Part shown: positions 23,875-63,033 of the stretch, one piece after another
Numbering within the stretch: the first letter of the stretch is position 1
Layout: every line of letters begins with the position of its first letter
From: Pseudomonas fluorescens NCIMB 11764
Lineage (GTDB): Bacteria > Pseudomonadota > Gammaproteobacteria > Pseudomonadales > Pseudomonadaceae
NCBI RefSeq assembly: GCF_000293885.2
Contig: NZ_CP010945.1
Location: 4,298,001 to 4,362,000 of the forward strand
Direction: 5' to 3'
DNA: 64,000 bases
Translations under genes and position numbers: made by a program
The notes under the pieces: generated by a model
What the model saw: the letters and a program-made list of their open reading frames with translations, nothing else
Databases searched by the model: none
Told to the model about the DNA's origin: nothing

Positions 23875-23888
23875 TTGACTTGAATCAA
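23875..23888. promoter_or_regulatory. Anr/FNR-type box (TTGAC-N4-ATCAA)
   Basis: Nine of ten consensus positions match. It lies 60 bp before the Mg-ATPase fusion gene (plus) and 126 bp before the HAD-ATPase gene (minus). Confidence 0.7.
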
Positions 23889-23948
23889 ACAAAACCACCA
23901 CTGCCGGACCAGAATCCAGTTATCTGCTGAACAGCTCAGGGGTATGGC

Positions 23949-26900
23949 ATGCCCGTTAAACCGCCCATCCCGGATTTCACTCCCCCGCCAGTTGTTGAAG
24001 GCCAGTATTACAATCGCACTGCACTGTGGGGGGCGTGGCTGCTGGGTGCGGCGATCTGTGCGATGGTCGTTGGCGTCGCGCTGCATTTCACTGATCTCGA
24101 ATCGTTCACGCAATTGCTGATGGAGGCAGAGCCGCTGTGGCTCGTGGGAGCCCTTGGGCTGCAAGCGCTCACATATCTGGCACAGGGACAGGTTTTTCGC
24201 GTGGTGCTCAAAGCAAGAGCGCAACACCTTTCGCTTTGGGACGCGGGCAAACTCAGCGTGATGAAGCTGTTTGTCGATCAAGCACTGCCGTCCTCCGGCA
24301 TCAGTGGGGCCTTCGCGGTCGTCGCATCCTTCGCAAGACTCGGGTTCGAAAAGCCGGTTGTCCTGGCGTGTCTGGTGCTGGATTTGTCCGGGTACTTCCT
24401 GGCCTATGGATTGTCAGTCGGCGTGGCGTTGCCGGTGGTGATGTTTCAGGGACATGCAACTGCCGCCGTCATGACCCTGTGTTCAGTATTTGTGGCGGCA
24501 AGCCTGATGTTGGCGGTCATCACGCCAAAACTGGCGGGCAATACGAACCTGGCGTCCCATGTGCCGGGACAGCGTTTTTCGATTGTCGCCAAAGGCGTTT
24601 CGTTTCTCACCGGGGCTGATCGGCAGTTAGTACGCAGCCGCGCTTTGCTCTGGCGCATCACGCTGCTGGAGTTGGCGATTATCATCCTGGATAGCGCGAC
24701 ATTGTGGGTGCTGGTCCGCGCACTGGGTGTTTCGGCGCCGCCATTGGGGCTGTTTGCCGGTTTCATGCTCGCCAGCGTATTGCGCAGTATCGGCATTGTG
24801 CCGGGAGGCCTGGGGGCTTTTGAAGCCGCGGCCGTCGTGACGTTGCACTGGGTCGGGGTGAACATTGCGGTGGCGCTGTCCGCCACGTTGCTGTTTCGCG
24901 GCCTGACGTTCTGGTTACCGATGTTGCCAGGCCTTTGGCTGGCGCATCGCGAATGGCATCCGCCGGCAAAAAAAAACGCGGAGTATGCTGATGCCGATTA
25001 TTGGAGCCTTGCGGTCAGCCAGTTGCTCGGCACGTTGCACAGCGCCGAAACAGGGTTAAGCAGTGCACAAGCCAAATCCCGAATGCGCAGTGCACGAACG
25101 CAGGCCAAGGATCGGCCTCAGGGATTGGCCAGGTTGGTGCTTGAGCAAATGCGCACGCCGCTGGTTCTGATTCTGGTTGCGGGCGCATTGGTCGCTTTGG
25201 CGGTAGGAGACTGGCTAGATGCAGCGATCGTCTGGTGCATTGTCCTGATCAGCGCGGTACTCAGTGCCTGGTATGAAAATCGCGCCAGCACGGCAGTGGA
25301 ACAGTTACGCAATAAAATCGCTTTGCGGGCTACGGTACGCCGGGACGGCCGGATCGTTGAGGTGGCGGCCGCTGAAGTGGTGCCCGGTGACGTCATGCTG
25401 CTCAGCGCGGGCAGCCTCATCGCCGCTGACGGCCGCTTGCTGCAGGCCCTCGATTGCTTTGTCAGTGAAAGCCTCCTGACCGGTGAAACCTTTCCGGTGG
25501 AGAAACTGCCCGGGGAATGCGCAGCCGACGCTGCCCTGGGACAGCGCCATAACTGCGTGTTCATGGGCACCTCGGTGCGCAGCGGCACGGCCGAAGTGCT
25601 CGTCACGCGCTATGCCGATGAAAGCGAAATCGGCCACATCGCCAGGACCTTGTCGCTACGGCCTCCCGAAACCGAATTTGAGCGCGGTTTGCGGCATTTC
25701 GGTGGCTTGCTGCTGCGGGTGATGCTGGTGATCACGATCGTGGTGTTCGGCATCAATATTCTGCTGCACCGTCCGACCCTCGATACCCTGTTGTTCGCCA
25801 TTGCATTGTCCATCGGGATGTCACCCGAATTACTGCCCGCGATCCTCAGTATCACGCTGGCAAAAGGTGCTCAGCGCATGGCGGCCAAAGGGGTCATCGT
25901 TCGGCACCTCAACGCCATCGAGAACCTGGGCGCGATGGACATTCTGTGCACTGACAAGACGGGCACGCTGACCCGGGGTGTCGTGGTGCTGGACGGTGCA
26001 ATGGACGTCGATGGCACCGCCGACTCGCAGATACTGCAGTTGGCGGTGCTCAATGCGAGCTTGCAGACCGGTATGCGCAACGCGATGGACGACGCCATTA
26101 CCCTGGCGGGCAAAAGCCTGAGCCCTTGTCCGCAGGTCATCAAGCGCGATGAAGTCCCGTATGACTTTGTGCGCAAGCGCCTGAGCGTGGTGGTGGGCAA
26201 TGCGCCTGAGGCCGACACGCTGATGGTCACCAAAGGGGCGCTGGATAATGTGCTGGAGGTCTGCACTCAACTGCGACGAGGCGACCAGGTATTCGCACTC
26301 AATGACACGGAGCGAGCGGCAATTGTCCAGCGTTTCGCAGACTGGAGCGAGCAGGGGTTTCGAGTCCTGGGCCTTGCCAGTCGCGTGCTGCCGGATCAAC
26401 CGCACTATGGCTGCAGTGAAGAAAGGGACATGATCTTTCGTGGTTTTCTGTTGTTCTTCGATCCACCGGAACCCGGGGTCAAGGACACTATCGCCACTCT
26501 CGACAAGCTCGGGGTGCAAGTGAAAATCATCAGCGGCGACAGCCATCTGGTCGCGCGCCATGTAGGCCAGGCGGTGGGCCTGCCTGTGGAGCGAATCATC
26601 ACCGGCGCCGAACTCTCGGCGATGAAAGACGAAGCGCTGATGCACCTGGCCCCACTGACGACCCTGTTCGCCGAGGTCGACCCCAACCAGAAAGAGCGCA
26701 TCATCCGGGCGTTGCAGAAGACCGGGCATGTGGTCGGGTACATGGGGGATGGCATCAACGATGCCCCGGCCCTGCAAGTGGCCGATATCGGGATCTCGGT
26801 AGACAACGCCGCCGACGTGGCAAAGCAGGCGGCAGACTTCGTGTTGCTGGAGCACAATTTGGACGTCTTGCGCGAAGGCATCGAAGAGGGCCGGCATACC

Positions 26901-27539
26901 TTTGCCAATACCCTCAAATACATTTCAATCGTGTCCAGTGCCAACTTCGGCAATATGATCAGCATGGCCCTGGCTTCTCTGGCGTTACCCTTCCTGCCAC
27001 TGCTGGCCAAGCAAATATTGCTCAACAATCTATTGTCTGACATTCCTTCCATGGGGATTGCCAACGACAACGTTGATCGCGAATGGGAAAGCACCCCTCA
27101 TCGCTGGAATATCACCGAAATCCGCAACTTCATGGTGGTTTTCGGGCTGGTGAGCTCGCTGTTCGACATGCTGACGTTCGTAGCCCTTTACCTGCTCGCA
27201 GAGAGGGTTCCCGAAGTGTTCCGCAGCGGTTGGTTCGTTGAGTCACTGTTGACTCAACTGCTGACGATCTTCATCGTGCGGACGTACAGACCGTTTTACC
27301 AAAGCCGACCGGCGAAACTGCTGATGATCAGTGCGCTGTGCATCGGCCTGCTCGCAATCGGGCTACCGTACAGTCCGGTAGCCCCTTGGTTCGGCTTGGT
27401 GCCTTTGCCATTCCACATCATCGCTGTGGTGTTGGCAATCAGCGTGGTGTACCTGGTTTCAGCTGAATGTGTGAAGCGCATTTTCTACCGTCGTCAGCGC
27501 TCCAAACGCCATCACACATCCCATCGTCGTCATGCTTGA
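23949..27539 (+). CDS. LPG-synthase-type membrane domain fused to MgtA-like P-type ATPase
   Basis: This is a 1196-residue fusion. Residues 1 to about 340 are a polytopic domain of the lysylphosphatidylglycerol synthase TM/UPF0104 type (LSVMKLFVDQALPSSGISGA; IVPGGLGAFEAAAVVTLHW). Residues about 350-1190 are a complete P-type ATPase of the P3/MgtA-like class: an N-terminal cation-ATPase module, the TGETFPVEK actuator loop, ILCTDKTGTLTRG with phosphorylated Asp669, GDGINDAPALQVADIGIS, and a C-terminal membrane bundle. Mg2+ (or other divalent cation) uptake is the likely role. An Anr-type box lies 60 bp upstream. The M. tuberculosis DosR regulon contains a related pump (CtpF) without the N-terminal domain. 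What the lipid-flippase-like domain adds is unknown. Confidence 0.88.
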   Translation: MPVKPPIPDFTPPPVVEGQYYNRTALWGAWLLGAAICAMVVGVALHFTDLESFTQLLMEAEPLWLVGALGLQALTYLAQGQVFRVVLKARAQHLSLWDAGKLSVMKLFVDQALPSSGISGAFAVVASFARLGFEKPVVLACLVLDLSGYFLAYGLSVGVALPVVMFQGHATAAVMTLCSVFVAASLMLAVITPKLAGNTNLASHVPGQRFSIVAKGVSFLTGADRQLVRSRALLWRITLLELAIIILDSATLWVLVRALGVSAPPLGLFAGFMLASVLRSIGIVPGGLGAFEAAAVVTLHWVGVNIAVALSATLLFRGLTFWLPMLPGLWLAHREWHPPAKKNAEYADADYWSLAVSQLLGTLHSAETGLSSAQAKSRMRSARTQAKDRPQGLARLVLEQMRTPLVLILVAGALVALAVGDWLDAAIVWCIVLISAVLSAWYENRASTAVEQLRNKIALRATVRRDGRIVEVAAAEVVPGDVMLLSAGSLIAADGRLLQALDCFVSESLLTGETFPVEKLPGECAADAALGQRHNCVFMGTSVRSGTAEVLVTRYADESEIGHIARTLSLRPPETEFERGLRHFGGLLLRVMLVITIVVFGINILLHRPTLDTLLFAIALSIGMSPELLPAILSITLAKGAQRMAAKGVIVRHLNAIENLGAMDILCTDKTGTLTRGVVVLDGAMDVDGTADSQILQLAVLNASLQTGMRNAMDDAITLAGKSLSPCPQVIKRDEVPYDFVRKRLSVVVGNAPEADTLMVTKGALDNVLEVCTQLRRGDQVFALNDTERAAIVQRFADWSEQGFRVLGLASRVLPDQPHYGCSEERDMIFRGFLLFFDPPEPGVKDTIATLDKLGVQVKIISGDSHLVARHVGQAVGLPVERIITGAELSAMKDEALMHLAPLTTLFAEVDPNQKERIIRALQKTGHVVGYMGDGINDAPALQVADIGISVDNAADVAKQAADFVLLEHNLDVLREGIEEGRHTFANTLKYISIVSSANFGNMISMALASLALPFLPLLAKQILLNNLLSDIPSMGIANDNVDREWESTPHRWNITEIRNFMVVFGLVSSLFDMLTFVALYLLAERVPEVFRSGWFVESLLTQLLTIFIVRTYRPFYQSRPAKLLMISALCIGLLAIGLPYSPVAPWFGLVPLPFHIIAVVLAISVVYLVSAECVKRIFYRRQRSKRHHTSHRRHA

Positions 27540-28245: not shown

Positions 28246-28259
28246 TTGATCTTTGTCAA
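28246..28259. promoter_or_regulatory. Anr/FNR-type box (TTGAT-N4-GTCAA)
   Basis: Nine of ten positions match. It lies between the BCAM0308-like gene (minus, 135 bp) and the groEL paralog (plus, 154 bp). Confidence 0.7.
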
Positions 28260-28328: not shown

Positions 28329-28342
28329 TTGATAAAAGTCAA
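28329..28342. promoter_or_regulatory. Anr/FNR-type box (TTGAT-N4-GTCAA)
   Basis: A second dyad in the same 300-bp intergenic region, 71 bp before the groEL paralog start, at a typical activator distance. Confidence 0.75.
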
Positions 28343-28412: not shown

Positions 28413-30029
28413 ATGGCTCACACTAAAATCATGTTTCGTGCTGCAGCTCGCGAGAAAATCCTGAGTGGCGCCACACAGTTGGCGGACGCCGTACGGGTGA
28501 CGCTGGGCCCGAAATCAAAATCGGTACTGATCCAGAATAAATGGGGCAATCCCACGGTCTGCAATGATGGCGTGACGATCGCCAAACGCATTGATCTGCT
28601 CGACCCCGAGGAAAACCTGGGCGCGCAAATGCTGCGTCAGGCGGCCGAACGCACAGGCGATGCGGTCGGGGACGGGACCAGTACGTCAACGGTGCTCGCC
28701 CATGCAATCCTGGCCGATGGCATCCGCAACGTCGTCGCGGGTGCCAGTGCGATCGACCTCAAGCGTGGCCTGGATCGCGGACTGTTGTTGGTCGTCGAAT
28801 CCCTCGCCGCTCAATCGCGACCGGTCAGCACGCTCAAGGAAAAGGCCCAGGTCGCCACGCTGTCGGCGCATAACGATGCCGTCATCGGTCAGTTGGTGGC
28901 AGACGCCCTGGAAAAGGTCGGCGTTGAAGGCGTTGTCAGTGTCGAGGAGTCCAAGACCACCGAAACCGTGGTCGAGGTCATGGAAGGAATGCGGTTTGAC
29001 CGAGGCTTTGTTTCACCCTATTTCGTCACTGATGCCGAGAAGATGCAGGTCGAACTCGATGACGCCTGCCTGCTGCTCTGTGACCATAAGATCGGTGCAC
29101 TCAAAGACTTGCTGCCCTTGCTTGAACTCGTGGCCAAAAGCGGGCAACCACTGGTTTTGATCGCGGACGATATCGAGGGTGAGGCGTTGACCACGCTGGT
29201 CGTCAACCAGATACGGGGCGTTCTTCGAGCGGTGGCGATCAAAGCTCCTGGCTTTGGTGATCGGCGCAAGGAAATGCTGCAGGACATGGCCGTTCTGACG
29301 GGGGCAACGGTGGTTTCCAACGAACTGGGTGTCACCCTGGAACAGGTGGAACTGAACCAGTTGGGACGTGCACATCGAGTCGTGGTGCAAAAAGACAGCA
29401 CGGCGCTGATAGGGGGCGCCGGCACACGCGAGGCCATCGAGGCACGTTTGCAGCAGATTCGAACGCAAATAGACAGTACCACCAGCGATTACGACCGTGA
29501 AAAGCTTCAGGAACGACTGGCGAGGCTGTCTGGCGGTGTTGCGGTGATCCGGGTCGGGGCGCCTTCCGAAGCCGAAATGAAGGCGCGCAAGGATGCGCTG
29601 GATGATGCCATCTCAGCGACCCGGGCAGCGATCGCCGAAGGCATTGTGCCGGGGGGTGGTCTTGCGTTGCTCAAGGCCGTCCCGATTCTCGCGGCCGAAG
29701 AGGCCCGTTATGAAGGCGATGCCAGGACCGGCTTGCAGATTCTTCGCCGGGCGCTGGAAGCTCCGGCCAGACTCATCGCTGAGAATTCGGCAGTGGATGC
29801 CGGCGTCGTGATTGCGCGCATGCTCGCCGAACCTGGGAACATTGGCTTCGATGCGTCCGCCAATTGCTATGTCGACATGTACGAAGCCGGCATCATCGAC
29901 CCGACCAAGGTGGTGCGTATTGCCCTCGAAAATGCCGTTTCAGTCGCCAGTATCTTGCTGCTGACCGAGGCGACCATGACTGATATTCCGGAAAAGGAAT
30001 CACCTGCCCAGCCGTCTTTCCCTGAATGA
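28413..30029 (+). CDS. groEL: GroEL-like chaperonin, second copy without groES
   Basis: The 538-residue protein aligns with GroEL along its length: GATQLADAVRVTLGPKSKSV, AVGDGTSTSTVLAHAI (ATP-binding loop), the apical segment RFDRGFVSPYFVTDAEKMQV, VAIKAPGFGDRRKEMLQDMA, and TRAAIAEGIVPGGGLALL. It differs from housekeeping GroEL in the ATP loop (GTSTST for GTTTAT), in Phe for Tyr in the RGFVSPYF peptide-binding segment, and in a Pro-rich end with no Gly-Gly-Met tail. No groES lies nearby, so it must borrow or lack a co-chaperonin. Two Anr-type boxes upstream suggest it is the low-oxygen chaperonin. Confidence 0.92.
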   Translation: MAHTKIMFRAAAREKILSGATQLADAVRVTLGPKSKSVLIQNKWGNPTVCNDGVTIAKRIDLLDPEENLGAQMLRQAAERTGDAVGDGTSTSTVLAHAILADGIRNVVAGASAIDLKRGLDRGLLLVVESLAAQSRPVSTLKEKAQVATLSAHNDAVIGQLVADALEKVGVEGVVSVEESKTTETVVEVMEGMRFDRGFVSPYFVTDAEKMQVELDDACLLLCDHKIGALKDLLPLLELVAKSGQPLVLIADDIEGEALTTLVVNQIRGVLRAVAIKAPGFGDRRKEMLQDMAVLTGATVVSNELGVTLEQVELNQLGRAHRVVVQKDSTALIGGAGTREAIEARLQQIRTQIDSTTSDYDREKLQERLARLSGGVAVIRVGAPSEAEMKARKDALDDAISATRAAIAEGIVPGGGLALLKAVPILAAEEARYEGDARTGLQILRRALEAPARLIAENSAVDAGVVIARMLAEPGNIGFDASANCYVDMYEAGIIDPTKVVRIALENAVSVASILLLTEATMTDIPEKESPAQPSFPE

Positions 30030-30050: not shown

Positions 30051-31103
30051 TCATGTGTAGGAGGCTGCCTCGGTCATCGTCAGGTGATTGAGGATCGGGT
30101 TTTCGCCGTGCAAATAACTCAGTGCCTGGTGCATCAATTGGACAGCTTGTTGTTTTTTTTCGTATCGCTTGGCCGGATCGGCATGACGTAGCGCTGCCCC
30201 CGCGAGGGAGAAGGAGCGCGTGGCAGCCCGCAAAGAAAGGAAAAACGCCAAGGGTTTGCAGTCTTCCTGCGCATCGCTGTGGTTGAGGTAGCTGGACAAC
30301 AGCCGTGCTCCCAGCCTGTTCAGGCCATGGTGTTGCAGGTCCATCAGCACAAAAGCCAGGTCGTAGAGCACATCGATGCAGGCAAGCCGCTCACTGAACT
30401 CGATACCATCGAAGAGTGTGGGCTGGCCGTCGAGCAGGCAGATATTGGCCAAGCGCATATCACCATGGCAGCGTCGAACGCGGCCCTCACGGCGGCGACC
30501 TTCGAGGCAGCCGGTCAACGACTCCAGCTGGGTCCGGGAGGTGTGAGCAATCGCGGTGACTGTCGCGAAATCGAGGAGAGGCGAGTAGCGAGACATTTCC
30601 CGATGATTTTTCTCGATTTCTTCATACAGGTCCAAAATGCGACCGAAAGAAGGGGTGATTTGTGCACTGGCATGAAAGCGGGCGATCTCCGCCCCCAACT
30701 GTTCCAGCATCGGTTCAGTCAGGCGTCCTTCAACGGCCATGCGGTCAAACAGCCGATCCTGAGCGAAACGACGCATCACCACGAGCCAGTCAACCACGGG
30801 TCCGCAACCATTGAGTGCCAGCTGGCCATTCGTCTGGCGATTGATCGGACACAGGCTCAAATACAGCGTCGGCGCTGTCCGTCGATTCAACAGTAGCTCT
30901 GCCTCACAGGCGTTTTTGCGGCTTTCCAGGCTTAAGAAATCCAGCTCGGCAAACGCCACGGCGCGTTTGAGTTTGTAGGCGCGGTCGGCGTGCAGAAAAA
31001 TCACCGAACCATGGGTCTCGATACGCTCCACTGGCTGGTTTGACGTGCCGTAGCTGGACGGCCTGGAGAGAAAGGCAATGACCTCGTCTTGCAGGGTGTT
31101 CAT
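30051..31103 (-). CDS. Aminoglycoside-phosphotransferase-fold protein (Rv2004c N-terminal-like)
   Basis: The 350-residue protein has a kinase/phosphotransferase fold. GSVIFLHADRAYKLKRAVAF carries the ATP-site lysines, HGDMRLANICLLDG is the catalytic HGDxxxxN loop, and LFDGIEFSERLACIDVLYDL carries the Mg-binding Asp. Homologues such as M. tuberculosis Rv2004c (DosR regulon) have an extra AAA/P-loop domain that is absent here. The longer frame to 31178 starts inside the Anr box, so ATG 31103 is the likely start. The phosphoacceptor is unknown. A perfect Anr dyad lies 62 bp upstream, shared with the divergent stress-protein operon. Confidence 0.82.
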   Translation of the reverse strand: MNTLQDEVIAFLSRPSSYGTSNQPVERIETHGSVIFLHADRAYKLKRAVAFAELDFLSLESRKNACEAELLLNRRTAPTLYLSLCPINRQTNGQLALNGCGPVVDWLVVMRRFAQDRLFDRMAVEGRLTEPMLEQLGAEIARFHASAQITPSFGRILDLYEEIEKNHREMSRYSPLLDFATVTAIAHTSRTQLESLTGCLEGRRREGRVRRCHGDMRLANICLLDGQPTLFDGIEFSERLACIDVLYDLAFVLMDLQHHGLNRLGARLLSSYLNHSDAQEDCKPLAFFLSLRAATRSFSLAGAALRHADPAKRYEKKQQAVQLMHQALSYLHGENPILNHLTMTEAASYT

Positions 31104-31164
31104 TCTCGCCACCACGCCGTCTGCGGACTTTTCGGCAGTGTGAAGAAGCGAAGGCCCGCTCCGA

Positions 31165-31178
31165 TTGATATTGATCAA
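31165..31178. promoter_or_regulatory. Anr/FNR box, perfect dyad TTGATATTGATCAA
   Basis: Ten of ten consensus positions. It lies 62 bp before the phosphotransferase-fold gene (minus) and 187 bp before the stress-protein gene (plus). Confidence 0.88.
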
Positions 31179-31226
31179 GTACGGTGGAATGAAAGGCTGC
31201 GTGTCTCACGGGCCTCACGCCGGTAT

Positions 31227-31240
31227 TTGATATTTATCAA
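31227..31240. promoter_or_regulatory. Anr/FNR box, perfect dyad TTGATATTTATCAA
   Basis: Ten of ten positions. It lies 125 bp before the start of the stress-protein/acs/pdh operon. Confidence 0.88.
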
Positions 31241-31364
31241 CGTCAGGCACATTGCAGCGGAGCAACCTGAATCAACGTTGGGTGCTTGGTCCTGCGTGGA
31301 CGCAACGGCTGAGCCCTACGAGGATCAGCGGCAAGCGTTGAAGCGCTCTGCCTGGAGTCAGCTC

Positions 31365-54603: not shown

Positions 54604-54647
54604 TCGCGGCGTTGACCCGCGCCTTGCTTCAGCCTTTTTAAATGAAC

Positions 54648-54677: not shown

Positions 54678-54694
54678 GCTGGGCAGCCAGGGAT

Positions 54695-55237
54695 TCACTC
54701 GCCTTTGATTGGCACGACTTTATCCGCTTTCATGGCTTCGGGCTTTTTCGGCAGCGAGATGCTCAGCACGCCTTTGCTGAAACTCGCGTCGATCTTCTCG
54801 GCATCGACACCTTTGGGCAAGTTGAACACCCGCTCGAAGGAGCCATAGTGACGCTCGCTGAGGTGATAGCCCTTCCTTTTTTCTTCCTTGTCCTCTTTCT
54901 TTTCGCCTTTGATGATCAGGCTGCCGTTGGACAGTTTGATCTCAATGTTTTTCTGATCCATACCGGGAAGCTCAGCTGTGATTTCGTAGCTTTTGTCTTT
55001 CTCGGAGATGTCCACGGCAGGCAGACCGTGACCGATCAGTTCGCGCCGCCAGAGCGGCTCGACATCGAATAACCCGCGACCGAATGGCGACAGCCCCGAG
55101 CCGCGATTGAAGTCTTCGAACAGGTGATCAACCTGCTGCCGGAGCTTTTCCAGAGGGCGCCAGAGGTCTGTTGTCACGGGATGCTGACTGGCTTTGTCGT
55201 CGCTATGAACCGGCACTTTTTTTTCACTGTTGCTCAT
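54695..55237 (-). CDS. Hsp20/alpha-crystallin small heat-shock protein
   Basis: The 180-residue protein has an N-terminal arm (DLWRPLEKLRQQVDHLFEDF), an alpha-crystallin domain (LPAVDISEKDKSYEITAELP; NIEIKLSNGSLIIKGEKKED; SERHYGSFERVFNLPKGVDA; FSKGVLSISLPKKPEA) and a short basic tail VVPIKGE. It holds unfolding proteins in the cytoplasm without ATP. ATG 55237 has GAGGAGGA. No promoter box of its own is seen; it lies 86 bp after the ArcD-like gene and probably shares its Anr-controlled transcript. A broken 3' copy abuts ackA at 39040-39113. Confidence 0.92.
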   Translation of the reverse strand: MSNSEKKVPVHSDDKASQHPVTTDLWRPLEKLRQQVDHLFEDFNRGSGLSPFGRGLFDVEPLWRRELIGHGLPAVDISEKDKSYEITAELPGMDQKNIEIKLSNGSLIIKGEKKEDKEEKRKGYHLSERHYGSFERVFNLPKGVDAEKIDASFSKGVLSISLPKKPEAMKADKVVPIKGE

Positions 55238-55323: not shown

Positions 55324-56817
55324 CTACAAGGTCAGTGTCCCGGACCACAGCATCCAGCCGGCAAAGGCTGCCGCCGTCCAGATAATGATTAACAGCCCCG
55401 TCTCGGGACCGCTGAGCGGTTGTCCCTGGCGAGCCTTCATGGTGGCCAGGTAAATCAACGAACCGGGGGCGTAGAGCAAAGCGCTGAGCAACATGTATTT
55501 AGGCCCGGCGGCATACAGCAGCCACACGCAATACAGCGTCGCGACCAAGGCAATGGCCATGTCGCGCAGTTGCTGGCCTCGGTGGCCGGCGTAGGTCTCG
55601 CCCTGCCAGGTCAGTTTCAGCGCGTACAGACCGCTGAACAGGTACGGCAGCAGAATCATCGAGGTGGCCAGGGAAATCAGCGCGAGGTAACTGGCGCTCG
55701 AGTACAGCGTCAGCAACAGGAACAGTTGAATGCAGCCGTTGGTGATCCACAGCGCATTGGCTGGCACACCCTGGGTGTTTTCCACGGCGAATGGCCCCGG
55801 CATGACCTTTTCCTTGGCCGGTGTGAACACCGATTCCGCTGCCAGCAATGTCCAGGCGAGCAGGGCGCCACCCACCGAAATGATCAAGCCGATGCTGATC
55901 AGCACCGCGCCCCACGGTCCGGCGACCGCCTGAAGCACGCCCGCCATCGAGGGGTTTTTCAAGGCGGCCAGTTCCGGTTGTTTGAGAATGCCCAGCGACA
56001 GCAGTGACACCGCAATCAGCAGCAACAGGGTGATGACAAAACCGATGACCGTGGCGCGACCGACATTGGCCCGTTCTGCCGCACGGGCGGAGAACACGTT
56101 GGCGCCTTCGATCCCGATGAACACCCAGACGGTCACCAGCATGGTGCTTTTGACTTGATCGAGGGTGCTGCCCAGTGCGGGCGAACCCCAGAAATCGACG
56201 TTGAAGGTTTCACGCTGGAAAGCGGCGATCACCAGGCCGATAAACAGCAGCAACGGAACGATCTTGGCTACCGTGGTCAACGCGTTGGCCCGGGCCGCGG
56301 TGCGCATCCCTCTGAGGATCATCCAGTGCAACGACCACAGCACCACGGACGCGCCGGCAATCGCCGCTTTGTTGTTGCCTTCACCGAACAGCGGGAAGAA
56401 GTAACTCAGCGCCGCGAACAAAATCACCAGGTAGCTGACGTTGCCGATCCAGGCGCTGATCCAGTAGCCCCAGGCGGAGTTGAAGCCAAGGAACTCGCCG
56501 CCTAATGCGCGGGCGTAGGCGAATACACCGTTGTCCAGGGCAGGTTGGCGGTTGGACAGGGTTTGGTAGACCAAAGCGAGCGACAGCATGCCGACGCCCG
56601 TGATCAGCCAGCCAATCAGGATCGCCCCGGCCCCCGCACTGGCCGCCATGTTCTGCGGCAGGCTGAAAATGCCGCTGCCAATCATCGAACCGACCACCAG
56701 GGCAATCAGCAGGCTCAAAGACAGGCGCTTGGGTTCCACCTTTCGCAAACTGCCTGCAAGGGGTTGTGTGGCAGTCGGCGGAATGACCGGTTGGGTGCCT
56801 TGCAGATGCGTAGCCAT
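55324..56817 (-). CDS. arcD: Basic amino acid antiporter (ArcD-like, APC family)
   Basis: The 497-residue protein has about 12 membrane helices. Family marks are LSLLIALVVGSMIGSGIFSL, FLGFNSAWGYWISAWIGNVS, VWVFIGIEGANVFSARAAER and AWTLLAAESVFTPAKEKVMP. It resembles arginine/ornithine exchangers of the basic amino acid/polyamine antiporter group. Arginine/ornithine exchange feeds anaerobic ATP formation by the deiminase pathway, but arcABC is not in the window, so the substrate is inferred. ATG 56817 has GGAGGC. An Anr-type box is 92 bp upstream. Confidence 0.82.
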   Translation of the reverse strand: MATHLQGTQPVIPPTATQPLAGSLRKVEPKRLSLSLLIALVVGSMIGSGIFSLPQNMAASAGAGAILIGWLITGVGMLSLALVYQTLSNRQPALDNGVFAYARALGGEFLGFNSAWGYWISAWIGNVSYLVILFAALSYFFPLFGEGNNKAAIAGASVVLWSLHWMILRGMRTAARANALTTVAKIVPLLLFIGLVIAAFQRETFNVDFWGSPALGSTLDQVKSTMLVTVWVFIGIEGANVFSARAAERANVGRATVIGFVITLLLLIAVSLLSLGILKQPELAALKNPSMAGVLQAVAGPWGAVLISIGLIISVGGALLAWTLLAAESVFTPAKEKVMPGPFAVENTQGVPANALWITNGCIQLFLLLTLYSSASYLALISLATSMILLPYLFSGLYALKLTWQGETYAGHRGQQLRDMAIALVATLYCVWLLYAAGPKYMLLSALLYAPGSLIYLATMKARQGQPLSGPETGLLIIIWTAAAFAGWMLWSGTLTL

Positions 56818-56908
56818 GGGAGCCTCCACGAAACGAAAGTTTCTGCACACATCGAATGCGATGGTGCGAATGCTGACTCTAATTTCTACGTGTCCGTCCA
56901 AGGCGTGT

Positions 56909-56922
56909 TTGATTTAGATCAG
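56909..56922. promoter_or_regulatory. Anr/FNR-type box TTGAT-N4-ATCAG
   Basis: Nine of ten positions. It lies 92 bp before the ArcD-like/hsp20 unit (minus) and 171 bp before the P1B ATPase (plus). Confidence 0.72.
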
Positions 56923-57092: not shown

Positions 57093-59375
57093 ATGCTCAG
57101 TAAGTGGCTGGACCCCGTTCTGTTGCTGCTCACCGCACTGACGCTGCTGGCCGGCGGCATTGCGTATGTTGCGCAAGAACCTGATTGGGCATCGAGGTGC
57201 TGGGCCGCAGGAAGCCTGGTGATGGCTGCGGTACTGCTCGTTGAAATCGCCAGGCGCCTGGCCCGGCGCGAGGCCGGTGTCGACCTGATCGCGCTGCTGT
57301 CGATCACTGCCGCCCTGGTCTTTGAGCAGACACTGGTGGCGGCGGTGATTGCCTTGATGCTGGCGACCGGACGGACCCTGGAGTTTTTCACCAGGCAACG
57401 CGCTGACCGTGAGCTGCGTGCGCTCATCGACCGGGCGCCACGCTTTGCCTGGCTGCAGGAGGAGGGCGGCTTGCGTGAGGTCCCCGTTGAGCAGGTCCAG
57501 CCGCATCAAACATTGCTGGTGCGGCTGGGGGAGGTGATACCGGTCGACGGTCGGCTGCTAAGTCCTGCGGCGATTCTGGACGAATCGGCGCTCAGTGGTG
57601 AGTCGCTGCCCGTCACCCGTCGAGAAGGTGAGCAACTGCCCAGCGGCGTTTCCAATGTCGGTGCGCCCATCCTGCTGATCGCCACCCGAACAGCCGCACA
57701 GAGTACCTACGCCGGCATCGTGCGGCTGGCCGAGGAGGCACGTCGTTCGCGCGCACCTTTCGTGCGACTGGCCGACCGCTATGCCTTGTTCTTCATCCCG
57801 CTGACATTGCTGATTGCCGGATTGGCCTGGCAATTGAGCGGCGATCCTTTGCGAGCGTTGGCGGTTCTGGTGGTGGCCACGCCTTGCCCTTTGATTCTGG
57901 CGGTGCCGATTGCCTTCATGTCAGGTATTTCGAGGGCGGCGCGGCGCGGGATCCTGATCAAGGACGGCGCGACCCTGGAAGCGCTGGCCGGGGTCAAGCA
58001 GGTGTTTCTCGACAAGACCGGCACGCTGACCAGCGGCCATGCCCGCCTGCAGTCGATAGAGGTCAACGGGTTGGGCGATCCGCAACGCCTGCTCGGCCTG
58101 GCCGCTTCGCTGGCGCAAGCCTCGACGCATCCTGTTTGCCAGGCAATTGTTGAAGCGGCGCATCAGCGTCAATTGTCGCTCAGTGTCCCGCAGGCGGTAG
58201 AAGAAAGCCCAGGCTCCGGGCTTTGTGGGCGCGTCGATGGCGTGCAGGTGCGTTTCGGCACCTTGCCTTTTGCTCACAAAGACGCCGCTGCAACCGACTG
58301 GGTCGCCGCGATGCTGCGCCACATGGATTACCTGGCATGCAGCGGAAGCTTCATCGACGTGGACGGGGAACTCGCGGGCCTGCTGGTTTTCTCGGACAAG
58401 GTTCGGCGCGAAACGCCGCAGACGCTGCGTCGACTGCGCAATAGAGGCATCGAAAAGATCGTCATGCTCACCGGGGATCGCCTGGAAACTGCGGAGATGA
58501 TTGCGCTGTCTGCCGGGATTGACGAGTTGCGTGCCGGGTTGACCCCTGAGGAAAAAGTGCGAGCTGTACAGCAAGGTTGCCTGCACACCAGCACACTGAT
58601 GGTCGGCGATGGCATCAACGATGCTCCCGCGCTGGCGGCGGCCAACGTCGGCGTGGCCATGGGGGCGGGCGGTGCCACGGCTTCTGCGCAAGCCGCTGGC
58701 GTTGTGCTGTTGGTGGATCGCCTGGATCGCTTGGTCGAGGCGTTGGACATTGCCCGACGAACCCTCTATATCGCACGCCAAGGCGTGCTGGTCGGTATGG
58801 GGATGTCATTGCTGGCCATGGCAGCGGCAGCCCTCGGCTATCTGCCGCCGCTGATTGGCGCCGTGGTGCAGGAGGGCATTGACGTGGTGATCATCATTAA
58901 CGCCTTGCGGGCATTGGGGCCGTCGTGGGAGCTGAGGAAACGAAAGCTTGCCGCAGAGCATATCGATCGCCTGCAAGATGAACACCAGCAACTCGCCGCC
59001 GTACTGAGCGATCTGCACCAACTGGCCAATGACTTTGCCCAGCGCCCACTTGCGCAAGCACAGACCGACCTGATGCAACTGGTCGACAAGTTGCAAACAT
59101 CACTGGCGGAGCATGAACGCGAAGATGAAAACACACTGTACCCGCTGTTGACGCGAAGCATGCCGGGCGAGGATCCGATGTCGGCGATGAGCCACGCACA
59201 CCGGGAGATTTTTCGCCTTATCCACTTACTGGCGCGCATGAGCAGCGACTTCAGTTCCGCCCCCGCAACGGCATCAGCTGATGAGATTCAGCATCAGCTG
59301 ATTCGCCTGGATACCCTCGTGCGACTGCACTTTGATCAGGAGGAGGAACTGTTTCGTTATCTGGACTGGCGCTAG
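57093..59375 (+). CDS. P1B-type metal ATPase with C-terminal hemerythrin-like domain
   Basis: The 760-residue protein has P1B membrane helices and an actuator loop (DESALSGESLPVTRREG). The metal-site motif is VVATPCPLILAVPIAFMSGI (Cys265 in TPCPL). VFLDKTGTLTSGH carries phosphorylated Asp307, followed by MVGDGINDAPALAAANVGVA. Residues about 635-760 form a hemerythrin-like four-helix domain with HEREDENTLYPLL, SHAHREIFRLIHLLAR and LHFDQEEELFRYLDW (di-iron ligand pattern). There is no N-terminal CxxC metal domain. P1B-5 pumps with this architecture (for example S. meliloti Nia) are linked to Ni/Fe export. The hemerythrin part may sense oxygen or iron. An Anr-type box lies 171 bp upstream. Confidence 0.88.
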   Translation: MLSKWLDPVLLLLTALTLLAGGIAYVAQEPDWASRCWAAGSLVMAAVLLVEIARRLARREAGVDLIALLSITAALVFEQTLVAAVIALMLATGRTLEFFTRQRADRELRALIDRAPRFAWLQEEGGLREVPVEQVQPHQTLLVRLGEVIPVDGRLLSPAAILDESALSGESLPVTRREGEQLPSGVSNVGAPILLIATRTAAQSTYAGIVRLAEEARRSRAPFVRLADRYALFFIPLTLLIAGLAWQLSGDPLRALAVLVVATPCPLILAVPIAFMSGISRAARRGILIKDGATLEALAGVKQVFLDKTGTLTSGHARLQSIEVNGLGDPQRLLGLAASLAQASTHPVCQAIVEAAHQRQLSLSVPQAVEESPGSGLCGRVDGVQVRFGTLPFAHKDAAATDWVAAMLRHMDYLACSGSFIDVDGELAGLLVFSDKVRRETPQTLRRLRNRGIEKIVMLTGDRLETAEMIALSAGIDELRAGLTPEEKVRAVQQGCLHTSTLMVGDGINDAPALAAANVGVAMGAGGATASAQAAGVVLLVDRLDRLVEALDIARRTLYIARQGVLVGMGMSLLAMAAAALGYLPPLIGAVVQEGIDVVIIINALRALGPSWELRKRKLAAEHIDRLQDEHQQLAAVLSDLHQLANDFAQRPLAQAQTDLMQLVDKLQTSLAEHEREDENTLYPLLTRSMPGEDPMSAMSHAHREIFRLIHLLARMSSDFSSAPATASADEIQHQLIRLDTLVRLHFDQEEELFRYLDWR

Positions 59376-59438: not shown

Positions 59439-60368
59439 TTATTCCTCAATCAATTCCTGTGGCGAAACCACCCAGACGCTACACGGCATCTTGTACAGCA
59501 GATGTTCCACTGTACTGCCGACCAACCTGTCCATGACACGACGCCCGGCCCGGCCCATGACAATCATGTCGATGTCATAAGCGGTTGCGTAGCTGCCAAG
59601 CACCTTGGCCGGGTTGCCCATGATCATGTGCTGGCGCTCCGGCGGGATGCCGTTGCGCTCCGACAGTTCGCGGAAGGCATCAGCCTGTGCATCGAACAGG
59701 GTTTTGGCTTTGCTGGAAGAGAAAAACGTCGAGCCATCGCGGAAACCGAATTCATCCGCACTCATGGATGAAAGATCATGGGCATAGATGACGTCGAGTT
59801 CTGCATGACAGGTGCTCGCCAGTTTTGCGGCATCTTGCAGAATCCTGTCATTGAAACCCTCGTACTGCCCATCGCGATGGAAAGGGTCGACGGCTGCGAC
59901 GATCTTGCGCGGCAAGGCGTGGCGCATATTGCTGACAAAATGCAAAGGCACCGGGCATTCGCGCAGCAGATGAATATCCAGCGGAGTAAACATCAGGCGT
60001 GACAGGAGCGATTCGTGTTCCAGCCCCTTGATCAGCGCCGCCATGGGCTGTTCTTTGAGATGGATGAGGATTTCCTGCAAGGGTCTTTCCACCCAGACCA
60101 CTTCAGTGGTGACGTGTACGCCGATTTTGCGCAACGGACGAGCCTGGTCCTCCAGCCATTGGCGATGGCGTTCAACGTAGCCCAGTCGCATCTGTTCCAG
60201 CGCTTGTTCATTGACCATTCCGGCGGTCGCCAGCCCTTCGAGATAGTCGAACGCCACGATGTGCAATGACGCGTCCGACGCTTTGGCCAGCGCGGCGGCC
60301 CGGTCGAAAGCGGGGCTGTTTTCCATCAAGGGCGAGGCGACCAACATGAAACGCGTTTGATCAGGCAT
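59439..60368 (-). CDS. Universal stress protein, two Usp domains (no. 4)
   Basis: The 309-residue protein has two Usp domains: MPDQTRFMLVASPLMENSPA, second domain from LPRKIVAAVDPFHRDGQYEG, ending MIVMGRAGRRVMDRLVGSTV then EHLLYKMPCSVWVV. The ATG at 60368 has GGGAGA at 6 nt; the ATG at 60374 is too close to it. It is more similar in its first domain to no. 5 (PAFDRAAALA; IVAFDY) than to nos. 1-3, so the island has at least two Usp subgroups. An Anr-type box lies 103 bp upstream. Confidence 0.88.
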   Translation of the reverse strand: MPDQTRFMLVASPLMENSPAFDRAAALAKASDASLHIVAFDYLEGLATAGMVNEQALEQMRLGYVERHRQWLEDQARPLRKIGVHVTTEVVWVERPLQEILIHLKEQPMAALIKGLEHESLLSRLMFTPLDIHLLRECPVPLHFVSNMRHALPRKIVAAVDPFHRDGQYEGFNDRILQDAAKLASTCHAELDVIYAHDLSSMSADEFGFRDGSTFFSSSKAKTLFDAQADAFRELSERNGIPPERQHMIMGNPAKVLGSYATAYDIDMIVMGRAGRRVMDRLVGSTVEHLLYKMPCSVWVVSPQELIEE

Positions 60369-60470
60369 GACCATTCTCCCGTGGATAATCGTGCAAGTGC
60401 TTGCCAATGCAGCGATGCAATTGGGAAGTGAAGCTTTGCGATGATCATGCGGCCGGTCGGGGAAGGGGGA

Positions 60471-60484
60471 TTGATCTTTGTCAA
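60471..60484. promoter_or_regulatory. Anr/FNR-type box TTGAT-N4-GTCAA
   Basis: Nine of ten positions, with the same spacer (CTTT) as the box at 28246. It lies 103 bp before stress protein no. 4 (minus). Confidence 0.75.
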
Positions 60485-60548
60485 ACGCGAGGGGCAATGA
60501 CCCTGTCGCCCGACGTACGGTTATCCGCTGCGTTCAGAGACCAAATTG

Positions 60549-60562
60549 TTGACCATTGTCAA
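60549..60562. promoter_or_regulatory. Anr/FNR-type box TTGAC-N4-GTCAA
   Basis: A perfect dyad with both T/A inner positions changed to C/G, so eight of ten. It lies 77 bp before the alcohol dehydrogenase. Confidence 0.6.
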
Positions 60563-60638
60563 CCTGTCGTCTGGCATCCCGGCGCAGTCTTGGCGGCGTG
60601 CTGAACGCTTGCGCACGCAGAACGAAAGAGGGATCACC

Positions 60639-61712
60639 ATGGCGACCATGAAAGCGGCAGTTTTCGTTGAAAAAAACCGGATCGTGCTGCAGGACAAGCC
60701 CGTCCCCGAGGTCGGGCCGCTGGATGCACTGGTCCGTATCACCACCACGACCCTTTGCGGTACCGACGTGCACATCTTGCGCGGCGAATACCCGGTGGCC
60801 AAAGGGCTGACCGTGGGTCATGAGCCGGTGGGTGTCATCGAACGGCTGGGCTCCCAGGTGCGCGGCTTCGTCGAGGGGCAGCGAGTCATTGCCGGCGCCA
60901 TCACGCCCAGCGGGCAGAGTTACGCGTGCCTGTGCGGCTGTGCCTCGCAGGATGGCCCTGACACCCGTCATGGCTTTCGCGCCACGGGTGGCTGGAAATT
61001 CGGCAACATCATTGATGGCTGCCAGGCCGAGTACGTGCTGGTGCCGGACGCAATTGCCAATTTATGCCCGATTCCCGACGGCCTCAGCGATGAGCAGGTG
61101 CTGATGTGCCCGGACATCATGTCCACCGGTTTTTCCGGGGCGGAGCGCGGCGAGGTGAGCATCGGCGATACCGTTGCCGTTTTTGCCCTCGGGCCGATTG
61201 GCCTCTGCGCAGTGGCCGGCGCGCGTCTGAAGGGCGCGACGACCATCATTGGCGTCGATGCCGTGGCCGAGCGCATGAGCGTTGCGCGGCAGTTGGGCGC
61301 GACCCATGTGGTCAATTTCAAGGACGGCAACGTCGTCGAGCAAATCATGGCCCTGACCGATGGCCGTGGCGTCGATGTGTCCATTGAGGCGCTGGGCACC
61401 CAAGGGACGTTCGAGTCTGCACTGCGGGTGTTGCGTCCGGGTGGCCGGCTGTCGAGCCTCGGGGTTTATTCCACTGACCTGCGCATTCCGCTCGATGCCT
61501 TCGCCGCAGGACTGGGGGACTTGAGCATCGTCACCACCCTGTGTCCCGGCGGCAAAGAACGCATGCGTCGCTTGATGGCGGTGGTGAACAGCGGCGGTGT
61601 CGACCTGTCTCCCCTGGTGACTCACCGTTTCAAACTCGACGACATTGAAGCGGCTTATGAGTTGTTCGCTCACCAGCGGGACGGTGTGATGAAGGTGGCG
61701 ATTACGCCGTGA
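60639..61712 (+). CDS. Zinc-dependent alcohol dehydrogenase
   Basis: The 357-residue MDR-type enzyme has the catalytic zinc ligands in TTTLCGTDVHIL (Cys) and VGHEPVGVIERLG (His, Glu). A modified Cys loop (CLCGCASQDG) stands where the structural zinc lobe normally lies. The NAD-binding segment is VAVFALGPIGLCAVAGARLK then IGVDAVAERMSVARQLGATH. It should interconvert an alcohol and aldehyde with NAD(H), regenerating NAD+ when oxygen is short. ATG 60639 has AGAGGG. The MgtC/DUF4010 gene begins 49 bp after it, probably on the same transcript. Confidence 0.88.
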   Translation: MATMKAAVFVEKNRIVLQDKPVPEVGPLDALVRITTTTLCGTDVHILRGEYPVAKGLTVGHEPVGVIERLGSQVRGFVEGQRVIAGAITPSGQSYACLCGCASQDGPDTRHGFRATGGWKFGNIIDGCQAEYVLVPDAIANLCPIPDGLSDEQVLMCPDIMSTGFSGAERGEVSIGDTVAVFALGPIGLCAVAGARLKGATTIIGVDAVAERMSVARQLGATHVVNFKDGNVVEQIMALTDGRGVDVSIEALGTQGTFESALRVLRPGGRLSSLGVYSTDLRIPLDAFAAGLGDLSIVTTLCPGGKERMRRLMAVVNSGGVDLSPLVTHRFKLDDIEAAYELFAHQRDGVMKVAITP

Positions 61713-61761
61713 GGAAGGTGATTCCGGCCAGGAAGGCAACGCCTGCGCAGATGACCAACCC

Positions 61762-63000
61762 ATGAATGAAACCCTCGGCATGACGGGAGCAGCGGCGGCG
61801 CTGGGAATCGGCATGCTCGTTGGTCTTGAGCGCGAGCGGCACAAAGGACAAGGAGAGAGCCGTGCCTGTGCCGGGTTGCGCACCTTCGCGATTACCGCGC
61901 TGTTGGGCTATGTGGCGATGCAGGTCGGCGGCGGTCTGCTGGTAGGCATCGTGGCGGTCACGCTGGGCTTGCTGGTCACCGTGGCGTACTGGCGCAGCCT
62001 GAGCGATGACCCGGGCGTGACCAGCGAAGTCGCATTGCTCACCGTGTTGGTCCTGGGGGCACTGTGTAGCACCAGGCTCGAACTGGCCATTGCCATTGCC
62101 GTGGTGGTGACGGGGTTGTTGACGTATCGACAGAAGCTGCACCACTTTGCCCGTAGCCAGTTGACTGATGCGGAGATGCGCGACGGTCTGGTCCTGCTGA
62201 CTGCCGCACTGGTGGTGCTGCCACTGGTGCCTGATCGCTTCATTGGCCCCTATGCCGCCATCAATCTGCGCACCATTTGCACCCTGACGGTGTTGCTCAT
62301 GGTGGTGGGCGCGGTGGGGCATGTTGCTGTTCGTACGTTGGGTACCCGTTATGGCTATGCGATCAGCGCCATTGCCTCCGGATTTGCCTCGAGCACCGTG
62401 ACCATCGCCGCTATGGGCCACATTGCCGCCAAGGAGCCGGACAACATCAAGGTCTTGAGCGCAGCGGCGATATTCTCCAACCTCGCGACCTTCATCCAGG
62501 TCGGCCTGATCCTGGGCACGGTCGACACCGATCTGTTACGTCATATCTGGGCCCCGTTAATGTGCGGTGCTGCCGCCACGGCGCTGTATGGCCTGTGCTT
62601 GATGTTTCCCCGGCCTGCGACCGGCGTGAGCCAACCGATCAAGGTCGGCGGTGCGTTTAATCTCAAGCTGGCCCTGCTCGTCACATTGACCATGACCGGC
62701 ATCGCTTTCCTGTCGTCGGTGATGCTCAGCCTCTACGGCGAAGTGGGCGTGATGCTGACGGCGACCTTGACCGGCTTTGCCGATGCCCACTCCTCGACAG
62801 CGTCGATTGCCACATTAGCCAAGTCGGGCCAGATGCCGTTCGACGCCATTGCCGTCCCGACGTTAATCGCCGTCAGCAGTAACTCCCTGAGCAAATGCCT
62901 GGTGGCGTGGGTCAGTGGCGGTCGACCGTTCGCCGCTTATCTCATCCCGGGGCAGGTATTGCTGACGCTGGCGATGTGGGCCGGAATCTTGCTGCTCTGA
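61762..63000 (+). CDS. MgtC/SapB-DUF4010 membrane protein
   Basis: The 412-residue polytopic protein has an N-terminal MgtC/SapB-type segment (AAALGIGMLVGLERERHKGQ; AGLRTFAITALLGYVAM) and a C-terminal DUF4010 domain of several helices (GYAISAIASGFASSTVTIAA; LTGFADAHSSTASIATLAKS). Function is unknown; MgtC proteins modulate Mg2+ homeostasis and ATP synthase in pathogens. Its place with the Mg-type ATPase fusion in the same island is notable. It follows the alcohol dehydrogenase with a 49-bp gap. Confidence 0.85.
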   Translation: MNETLGMTGAAAALGIGMLVGLERERHKGQGESRACAGLRTFAITALLGYVAMQVGGGLLVGIVAVTLGLLVTVAYWRSLSDDPGVTSEVALLTVLVLGALCSTRLELAIAIAVVVTGLLTYRQKLHHFARSQLTDAEMRDGLVLLTAALVVLPLVPDRFIGPYAAINLRTICTLTVLLMVVGAVGHVAVRTLGTRYGYAISAIASGFASSTVTIAAMGHIAAKEPDNIKVLSAAAIFSNLATFIQVGLILGTVDTDLLRHIWAPLMCGAAATALYGLCLMFPRPATGVSQPIKVGGAFNLKLALLVTLTMTGIAFLSSVMLSLYGEVGVMLTATLTGFADAHSSTASIATLAKSGQMPFDAIAVPTLIAVSSNSLSKCLVAWVSGGRPFAAYLIPGQVLLTLAMWAGILLL

Positions 63001-63019
63001 AGGTACATCTCGCGTTGGG

Positions 63020-63033
63020 CTGATAAAGATCAA
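63020..63033. promoter_or_regulatory. Anr/FNR-type box CTGAT-N4-ATCAA
   Basis: Nine of ten positions, 70 bp before stress protein no. 5. Confidence 0.7.

Follow-up and report, generated by a model that had tools for sequence, protein, structure and literature searches.

The lxa locus of Burkholderia cenocepacia (BCAM0275A-BCAM0323; extended in B. contaminans and B. multivorans) is a 50-gene low-oxygen cluster (PMC3759415, PMC6127331) that forms a large stress and fermentation set, is patchily present among strains and has BCAM0049, BCAM0287 and BCAM1483 as predicted regulators (PMC4981469). P. putida KT2440 has two extra FNR-type genes, encoding FnrC (PP_3287) and FnrB (PP_3233), beside GNAT, universal stress, MBL-fold and phosphoribosyltransferase genes, and the genes near both are given as putatively theirs (PMC7801951). 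Here we describe, in a 64,000-nucleotide window of the genome of Pseudomonas fluorescens NCIMB 11764 (bases 4298001-4362000 of a single contig of 6,998,154 bases), a modular gene island nearly all of whose transcription units are preceded by FNR-type boxes of consensus TTGATN4ATCAA. We read this island as a survival locus, the Pseudomonas counterpart of lxa, with an FNR-type regulator encoded within it (hereafter FNR2) as the likeliest dedicated reader of the boxes and the core regulator Anr probably reading them too, and we give this reading a probability of roughly three in four. Such an island is of a kind already known from lxa and the PP_3287 cluster, and the regulator appears to be of a known subtype; a difference at the centre of the boxes is the part that we have not found described.

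The likeness to lxa lies in shared marker genes, matched by family or product name rather than by alignment with the J2315 genes. The gene table of PMC4981469 and the island have in common several universal stress proteins (USPs), an acetate kinase, a phosphoenolpyruvate (PEP) synthase (in the extended lxa forms), an MBL-fold protein, BCAM0308, a cation ATPase, cytochrome c, and a zinc alcohol dehydrogenase beside a CRP-family regulator (BCAM0286/BCAM0287 in lxa); furthermore, both have a metallopeptidase (FtsH-type in the island), and we equate the phospholipid-binding protein of lxa with an OsmY-like protein here. FNR2 is a CRP/FNR-type regulator encoded inside the island, and for lxa BCAM0287 is listed as a putative regulator. 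Polyhydroxyalkanoate synthesis, phosphotransacetylase and two-component genes belong to the lxa table and do not occur among the open reading frames (ORFs) annotated here, whereas pyruvate dehydrogenase (PDH), glycogen phosphorylase, phosphoketolase, GroEL and ArcD are found in the island and not in that table.

Boxes were scored by their mismatches to the consensus (none, at most one, at most two) and with a matrix built from 169 sites, all from genomes other than the host. Between 22 and 64 kb the window holds seven perfect boxes and 14 with at most one mismatch, where a uniform spread of the genome totals (27 and 367 in 6,998,154 bases) gives an expectation of 0.16 and 2.2 per 42 kb (Poisson p 5e-10 and 9e-8); since these totals take in the island itself, the comparison is conservative. 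Sites with at most two mismatches number 55 across the window, versus a mean of 22.38 in 100 shuffles (sd 4.21, maximum 32). The matrix scan covered the window, 100 kb of flanks and 14 sampled 20-kb control stretches (280 kb). At a score of at least 15, it found 14 sites in the 42-kb island part, one in the first 22 kb, three per 100 kb of flanks and five per 280 kb of control; at a score of 9, intergenic sites reach 4.48 per kb in the island (16 such sites, with 12 more within ORFs), against 0.25 in the control and 0 in the first 22 kb. The initial annotation of the window had asked whether a matrix scan would find equal density elsewhere, and boxes are indeed far denser here than in flanks and control, which are sampled stretches and not the complete genome. 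Each position that it had named is a box or near-box. Its eight perfect dyads are in fact seven, namely 31165, 31227, 37499, 40534, 47967, 48043 and 53589, all of them perfect; the form common to 31165 and 47967 (TTGATATTGATCAA) had been called fully palindromic, which applies instead to the box at 40534; and its grading shifts in that 51972, listed as weak, has one mismatch, while 60549, 38230 and 53543 have two.

The boxes occupy promoter gaps. Of the 21 transcription units counted by eye in 22-64 kb, 20 have in their upstream gap a site with no more than one mismatch, and the remaining unit (LTXXQ, 38286) has a weak box only. With gaps classed on mechanically called ORFs, boxes are borne by 9/10 divergent, 2/14 tandem and 0/9 convergent gaps of the island window, the boxless tenth divergent gap being an artefact of a shadow ORF called across the nitroreductase gene; the corresponding figures are 1/56, 1/133 and 0/58 in the 14 control stretches, and 2/3, 2/6 and 0/3 in the first 13 kb of L109 (labels in L and G denote stretches and genomes examined here). 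The frequent siting between divergent genes that had been noticed by eye is thus borne out, as is the lack of promoter boxes in the first 22 kb, where the single match with at most one mismatch (19558) lies inside a called ORF (19474-20511). Taking 22-64 kb as the unit was right as to the density of boxes and too narrow as to extent: further boxes lie at 64779, 67691, 74241 and 75623 in window-equivalent coordinates (window numbering continued to the right of 64 kb), and the island measures about 55 kb, from 22.07 to about 77.06 kb. Chance or A/T richness as the source of the boxes is ruled out by the shuffles, the genome counts, the matrix controls and the gap placement. Several USP genes are paralogues, and their promoters could be common by descent, so that one might see in the box excess a by-product of duplicated stress genes, or of A/T-rich intergenic DNA, devoid of regulon meaning; the intergenic densities given above, the boxes before unrelated genes, the 27 different N4 words among perfect island-type sites and the recurrence of box distances across species make this scarcely credible.

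FNR2 lies 2.8 kb beyond the window end, among island genes (L109:2778-3536, minus strand; window-equivalent 66778-67536). This 252-aa FNR-type protein has all four cluster cysteines (CSNCSVLELC and a later Cys), and its nearest solved relative by sequence is FNR (PDB 9qll/5cvr). A zinc alcohol dehydrogenase gene (ADH65) lies downstream in the same direction, and the divergent gap between FNR2 and a phosphoketolase gene contains the perfect box at 67691. The recognition helix reads ETICR and departs from the ExxSR of the FNR/Anr family: ET[IV]CR occurs in 51/51 FNR2-type rows from Pseudomonas loci, several of them from overlapping loci, including relatives at 49-52% identity, while ETVSR or ESISR is found in core Anr (L096; genome 3320683, minus strand; FNR cysteines, ETVSR helix), in Collimonas, Ralstonia soli and Dokdonella, and in the second FNR gene of L194. 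FNR relatives of Burkholderia, Paraburkholderia, Caballeronia and Cupriavidus have ETVSR, in all seven Burkholderiaceae relatives read, and not the ET[IV]CR of Pseudomonas FNR2. In a pooled reading of proteins the helix was matched in 150/163, with CR in 148 of these and 13 unmatched. A tree of 46 distinct rows of all kinds, with long branches and unsure deepest joins, sets the Pseudomonas FNR2 clade apart from core Anr and leaves the Collimonas and Ralstonia regulators outside it.

The cysteine of the reading helix was considered as an undescribed feature, wrongly, as it is stated for PP_3287 (PMC4505428); it therefore does not put FNR2 outside the FNR family. FNR2 shares with FnrC this cysteine and the GNAT, USP and MBL neighbours, and differs after the second cluster Cys, where PP_3287, known here from its description, has Arg (PMC4505428) and FNR2 has Ser. 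Both Cys and Arg are present in the relatives of L193-L195 (49-52% identity to FNR2), which fall within the FNR2 clade, and L194 and L195 have a gene mix like that of the PP_3287/PP_3233 clusters, which are far smaller than the island. A primer-derived PP_3287 pattern gave three matches in 396 genomes, with two mismatches each and no FNR2 relative in the 3-kb loci.

Homologues of FNR2 (E<=1e-70; 48-100% identity) were found in 86/398 Pseudomonas genomes, and among the 120 homologues listed the named ones are nearly all from Pseudomonas, one being from Stutzerimonas. FNR2-centred stretches of 20 genomes (20 kb each, one of 14 kb; 394 kb in total) hold 39 perfect boxes and 120 that deviate at one base or none; in the 16 stretches whose genomes were counted in full, 31 perfect boxes compare with 1.02 expected, and 14/16 stretches have at least one. 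Around FNR2 the gene order is shuffled between genomes and the gene kinds recur. Their boxes recur as well, being upstream of XFP (8/8), USP64 (8/8), USP59 (11/11), GNAT52 (6/6), BCASP (7/9), GNAT64 (9/11) and FNR2 (13/18) in L156-L195 and of ARCD (3/3) and PATP57 (3/3) in homologous loci; ADH65, directly 3' of FNR2, has one in 1/12. The distance from box centre to aligned start is mostly 63 bases for XFP, mostly 51-53 for USP64 and 48-50 for BCASP. Genomes with FNR2 have a mean of 21.3 perfect boxes versus 10.0 in those without (20 each, p 4e-5), the latter set being the first 20 listed and the genomes being related to one another.

Cargo blocks recur too. The PDH-acetate kinase-PEP synthase-glycogen phosphorylase-phosphoribosyltransferase (PRT)-USP block is found in G005 (L211) at 81-98%, and the BCAM0308-GroEL-APH-USP-acetate--CoA ligase (ACS)-PDH block in G251 (L226) at 76-95%, with letter-identical box pairs in the PRT/USP gap of L211 and the APH/USP gap of L226; likewise, L226 has a box pair between BCAM0308 and GroEL, and L211 a perfect A/T-centred box at the place equivalent to 40534. 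The idea that the entire block arrived by one horizontal transfer was rejected on the ground of this recurrence in other Pseudomonas at 76-98%, and we therefore make no claim as to when, or in which direction, any transfer took place. A search for the 37.4-48.2 kb block on plasmids returned one match, which spans 1% of the query. Relatives of GLGP occur in 15/396 genomes (the FNR2 and GLGP searches drew 398 and 396, respectively), 12 of the 15 with FNR2 (Fisher p 1.5e-6): seven at 79-100%, all with FNR2, and eight at 44-49%, five with FNR2. Among the best 80 of at least 485 acetate kinase relatives, the top one is from a Pseudomonas (88%) and the other 79, at 54-70%, bear mainly beta-proteobacterial or Xanthomonadales names; taken together, these 80 loci show no enrichment in boxes (1509 kb yield 78 sites of one mismatch or none), but a few of them, such as two Collimonas, do.

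The boxes of the island have a distinctive centre. Both central bases are A/T in 9/9 perfect boxes of the island and 45/52 from other FNR2 loci (54/61), and in 21 of the 27 N4 words; in the rest of this genome the same holds for 2/18. Perfect boxes outside the island were classed in this genome (18) and in three genomes with no FNR2 match, G015 (11), G017 (11) and G003 (9): of these 49, 26 lie in promoter gaps, 19 in ORFs and four in neither class. Unlike the island, the promoter boxes favour a TG/CA centre (17 TG/CA, eight other, one A/T), some of the 26 being the same site repeated across the four genomes. Four Burkholderiales stretches with an ExxSR-type FNR show the same preference, with 17/19 perfect boxes TG/CA-centred and 1/19 A/T-centred. 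Per genome, A/T-centred perfect boxes average 8.05 in the 20 FNR2-positive versus 1.65 in the 20 FNR2-negative genomes (p 4e-6), and other-centred ones 13.25 versus 8.35 (p 0.02).

The island is not the sole box-rich region of the genome, as seven perfect boxes cluster at 4.70-4.77 Mb (C1:4698856-4766727; L229, L230, L280-L282) near moeA and two genes at 4.73-4.74 Mb encoding CRP/FNR proteins that lack the FNR set of cysteines; five of the seven are in promoter gaps and two in ORFs, and one is TG/CA-centred. These two proteins, together with the single consensus that Anr and Dnr boxes share in P. aeruginosa (PMC6588701), give some substance to the idea that the island answers mainly to nitrogen oxides via a Dnr-type regulator, yet 0/7 perfect boxes around their genes are A/T-centred and no denitrification enzyme is among the annotated island ORFs, and we consider it very unlikely.

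That the island forms one FNR-type, presumably oxygen-responsive regulon, as had been proposed at the outset, is well supported by box density, promoter-gap placement, conservation and gene content, oxygen control being what we infer from them. When oxygen falls, a [4Fe-4S] FNR-type dimer would bind TTGATN4ATCAA in each promoter gap and activate transcription, often both ways from a divergent gap. FNR2 is the likeliest dedicated reader of these boxes, and since the gap that it shares with the phosphoketolase gene has a perfect box it probably controls its own transcription. Core Anr is a probable second reader of the island boxes. The response would supply USPs, chaperones, ArcD-type antiport, ion pumps and cytochrome c along with the enzymes of ATP-yielding fermentative steps (phosphoketolase, acetate kinase, PDH/ACS, glycogen phosphorylase and PEP synthase).

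Several observations weigh against this reading. When a sigma-70 -10 element was sought under strict criteria at the class II spacing from the boxes, no peak appeared, and a looser pattern, chosen on these very sequences, that peaked at 10/56 (mean 1.1) reached 6/59 at the same place in the opposite orientation. Some FNR2 loci are box-poor (one site with at most one mismatch per 20 kb in L189, two each in L190 and L192), and the box is often not kept upstream of DUF4010 (4/9), FTSH (2/7), ERE (2/4), USP31 (1/6) and PRT49 (1/3). In G005 the cargo block lies 0.88 Mb from FNR2, and L212-L214 contain close GLGP relatives without an adjoining PEP synthase and with few boxes. As for the parallel with Burkholderia, an lxa-like B. 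stagnalis stretch is not box-rich (three sites with at most one mismatch in 98 kb). Furthermore, on the FF reporter at native level PP_3233 gave 128, PP_3287 184 and ANR 8550 Miller units, PP_3233 and PP_3287 being expressed 10- and 5-fold less (PMC4505428), and this weak activity favours Anr as the stronger activator.

A rival view is that the island boxes are ordinary Anr sites, with core Anr as the sole effective reader and FNR2 as a minor or specialised modulator that lies nearby. Core Anr is present, with the FNR cysteines and an ETVSR helix, Anr-box prediction in Pseudomonas relies on the same consensus (PMC6588701), and the 14-letter box at 40534 is identical to the E. coli FF test site, whose promoter is strongly activated in P. 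putida by ANR alone (PMC4505428); since that promoter is A/T-centred, an A/T centre does not exclude Anr from the island boxes. In preliminary shift assays PP_3287, too, bound this site (TTGATCTAGATCAA), so that a Cys-type protein can recognise an A/T-centred box, and O2 inhibits its activation (PMC4505428). Against Anr as sole reader stands the fact that box islands, and a surplus of A/T-centred boxes across the genome, go with the possession of FNR2, whereas just 1/26 promoter boxes outside the island has an A/T centre. We take this view seriously while leaning away from it. The initial annotation had typed the boxes as Anr/FNR and framed its tests around Anr, and the regulator lying in the island and the A/T box centres indicate that Anr is perhaps not the sole or main one, so that we retain FNR2 as the likeliest dedicated reader with Anr probably acting beside it.

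The Pseudomonas Anr regulon resembles the island in its half-sites, TTGAT/ATCAA, and in its four-cysteine FNR regulator; its core set includes hemF, hemN, cioA and azu, and the terms "universal stress", "phosphoketolase" and "genomic island" are absent from the main text of PMC6588701. In Herbaspirillum seropedicae, Fnr1 and Fnr3 exemplify several FNR paralogues per cell with separate and shared promoters, and their boxes differ partly at inner positions 6 and 7; these results, based on ChIP-seq and RNA-seq, concern discrete promoter groups and not one linked island, with a C/G and C/T rather than an A/T preference (PMC5934665). Paralogue-specific boxes of this kind make it plausible that FNR2-type and Anr/Dnr regulators use box dialects, the former favouring A/T and the latter TG/CA centres; regulator and boxes would diverge together, genes joining the island would keep or gain an A/T box, and the overlap might be adjusted by heterodimers of Anr with FNR2 or by a thiol switch at the reading-helix Cys. 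We advance this dialect tentatively and think it rather doubtful as a whole; a clean split of readers is opposed by L194, where an A/T-centred box lies upstream of an ETVSR-type FNR gene. Among titles and the openings of abstracts, with few subscription journals covered, we found no description of an FNR2-linked box-tagged Pseudomonas island or of an A/T-centre preference. Whether several FNR proteins in one cell run distinct but overlapping regulons, and why there should be more than one, was posed as an open question in PMC4505428; the co-occurrence across the genus of a second FNR-type gene, linked promoters and a centre difference makes it directly testable.

Sites with at most one mismatch are also frequent in some related stretches of other genera (pOLGA1, 16/48 kb; Caballeronia, 11/48 kb; Collimonas, 6 and 8/21 kb), and number 3/47 kb in B. 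pyrrocinia and 3/98 kb in B. stagnalis. Like the island, plasmid pOLGA1 of Paraburkholderia phytofirmans OLGA172 has an FNR-type gene, universal stress proteins, an MBL-fold protein, arcD with arginine deiminase genes, acs and cytochrome c; unlike it, it is a plasmid, 6/7 perfect boxes (48 kb) are TG/CA-centred and the regulator has ETVSR. The whole 271-kb plasmid (L276) contains 50 boxes with at most one mismatch, and pOLGA1 is possibly a plasmid-borne low-oxygen regulon. Together with the island described here, this suggests that survival islands of the lxa type are modular and more widespread, occurring in Pseudomonas as well as on plasmids of Burkholderiaceae. The Collimonas acetate-kinase loci (L050, L060) have an FNR gene (46-47% to FNR2, ESISR), and 10/11 of their perfect boxes are TG/CA-centred. 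In 18 BCAM0308 loci of 17 other genomes, three perfect boxes compare with 1.05 expected (p 0.09), and a search for BCAM0308 in two Burkholderia records reached via FNR matches gave no match.

The genes and boxes of the island within the window are collected in Table 1.

Table 1. Genes and FNR-type boxes of the island in the window (window numbering).
Position	Strand	Feature	Remarks
22070..23749	-	HAD-IIB hydrolase + AAA domain protein, 559 aa	leftmost gene assigned to island; homologues in box-bearing loci L219, L220
23875..23888		box TTGACTTGAATCAA, 1 mismatch	divergent gap, ORF 22070-23749/ORF 23949-27539
23949..27539	+	LPG_synthase_TM (flippase-like) domain + magnesium-type P-ATPase, single ORF of 1196 aa	relatives at 71% in L191, 78% in L219
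27614..28147	-	BCAM0308 family protein	NCBIfam NF040826 "lxa_BCAM0308", 175.2 bits, cut-off 100
28246..28259		box TTGATCTTTGTCAA, 1 mismatch	BCAM0308/GroEL divergent gap
28329..28342		box TTGATAAAAGTCAA, 1 mismatch	BCAM0308/GroEL divergent gap
28413..30029	+	GroEL-type chaperonin	
30051..31178	-	APH-family phosphotransferase	called ORF overlaps box; true start probably nearer 30051 than called
31089..32252	+	USP	family match from residue 93, so translation may begin near 31365
31165..31178		perfect box TTGATATTGATCAA	APH/USP gap, ahead of the USP-ACS-PDH run and the APH-like gene; identical in L226
31227..31240		perfect box TTGATATTTATCAA	APH/USP gap; identical in L226
32152..37175	+	ACS, PDH E1 alpha, E1 beta and E2	four-ORF run
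37499..37512		perfect box TTGATCTAAATCAA	before nitroreductase-family gene
37570..38130	+	nitroreductase family protein	
38230..38243		weak box, 2 mismatches, matrix 11.9	before LTXXQ-family gene
38286..38912	+	LTXXQ motif family protein	
39115..40452	-	acetate/propionate kinase	
40534..40547		perfect, fully palindromic box TTGATCTAGATCAA	acetate kinase/PEP synthase gap
40675..45671	+	PEP synthase and alpha-glucan phosphorylase	two ORFs
45687..48007	-	PRT, PRPP-synthetase-like and flavin reductase-like proteins	three-gene run
47967..47980		perfect box TTGATATTGATCAA	PRT/USP gap; identical in L211
48043..48056		perfect box TTGATATAAATCAA	PRT/USP gap; identical in L211
48098..50441	+	USP, PRT-like protein, alpha/beta hydrolase	
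50458..51825	-	erythromycin-esterase-fold protein	PF05139
51972..51985		box TTGATCCAGATGAA, 1 mismatch, matrix 14.4	2-mismatch neighbour at 51989 (13.7)
52235..52891	+	cytochrome c	two cytochrome c domain matches
52922..53512	-	GNAT-type acetyltransferase	
53589..53602		perfect box TTGATGTAAATCAA	GNAT/USP gap; weak neighbour 53543 (matrix 10.0)
53677..55072	+	USP, then ORF without family match	
55324..56901	-	arginine-ornithine antiporter (ArcD type)	
56909..56922		box TTGATTTAGATCAG, 1 mismatch	ArcD-type antiporter/P-type ATPase gap
57093..59375	+	heavy-metal P-type ATPase with C-terminal hemerythrin domain	
59439..60497	-	USP	
60471..60484		box TTGATCTTTGTCAA, 1 mismatch	USP/alcohol dehydrogenase gap
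60546..63000	+	zinc alcohol dehydrogenase and MgtC/DUF4010 membrane protein	
60549..60562		box, 2 mismatches, matrix 15.2	USP/alcohol dehydrogenase gap
63020..63033		box CTGATAAAGATCAA, 1 mismatch	before USP ORF at 63088
63088..63999	+	putative USP, ORF crosses window end	by position only, because relatives have USP48/USP59-type matches at that place

To the left of the island, the window encodes at 11310-18480 a ClpG/ClpK-like disaggregase, a PsiE-like protein, a KefB/C-type antiporter and two proteins of thioredoxin fold; this combination, we presume, recalls transmissible stress-tolerance loci. The G+C content is 0.53 at 8-16 kb versus 0.57-0.61 in 8-kb blocks from 24 kb on. A 183-aa ORF at 4429-4980, whose start matches a Na/H exchanger and whose end a zinc dehydrogenase domain, is perhaps a junction of gene remnants. 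Finally, two boxes lie to the left of both window and island: an A/T-centred perfect box at genome C1:4277577 (L107:19577), 737 bases before an arginine-decarboxylase-like ORF (ORFs of at least 250 aa being listed), and a one-mismatch box at genome 4285111 (L108:7111).

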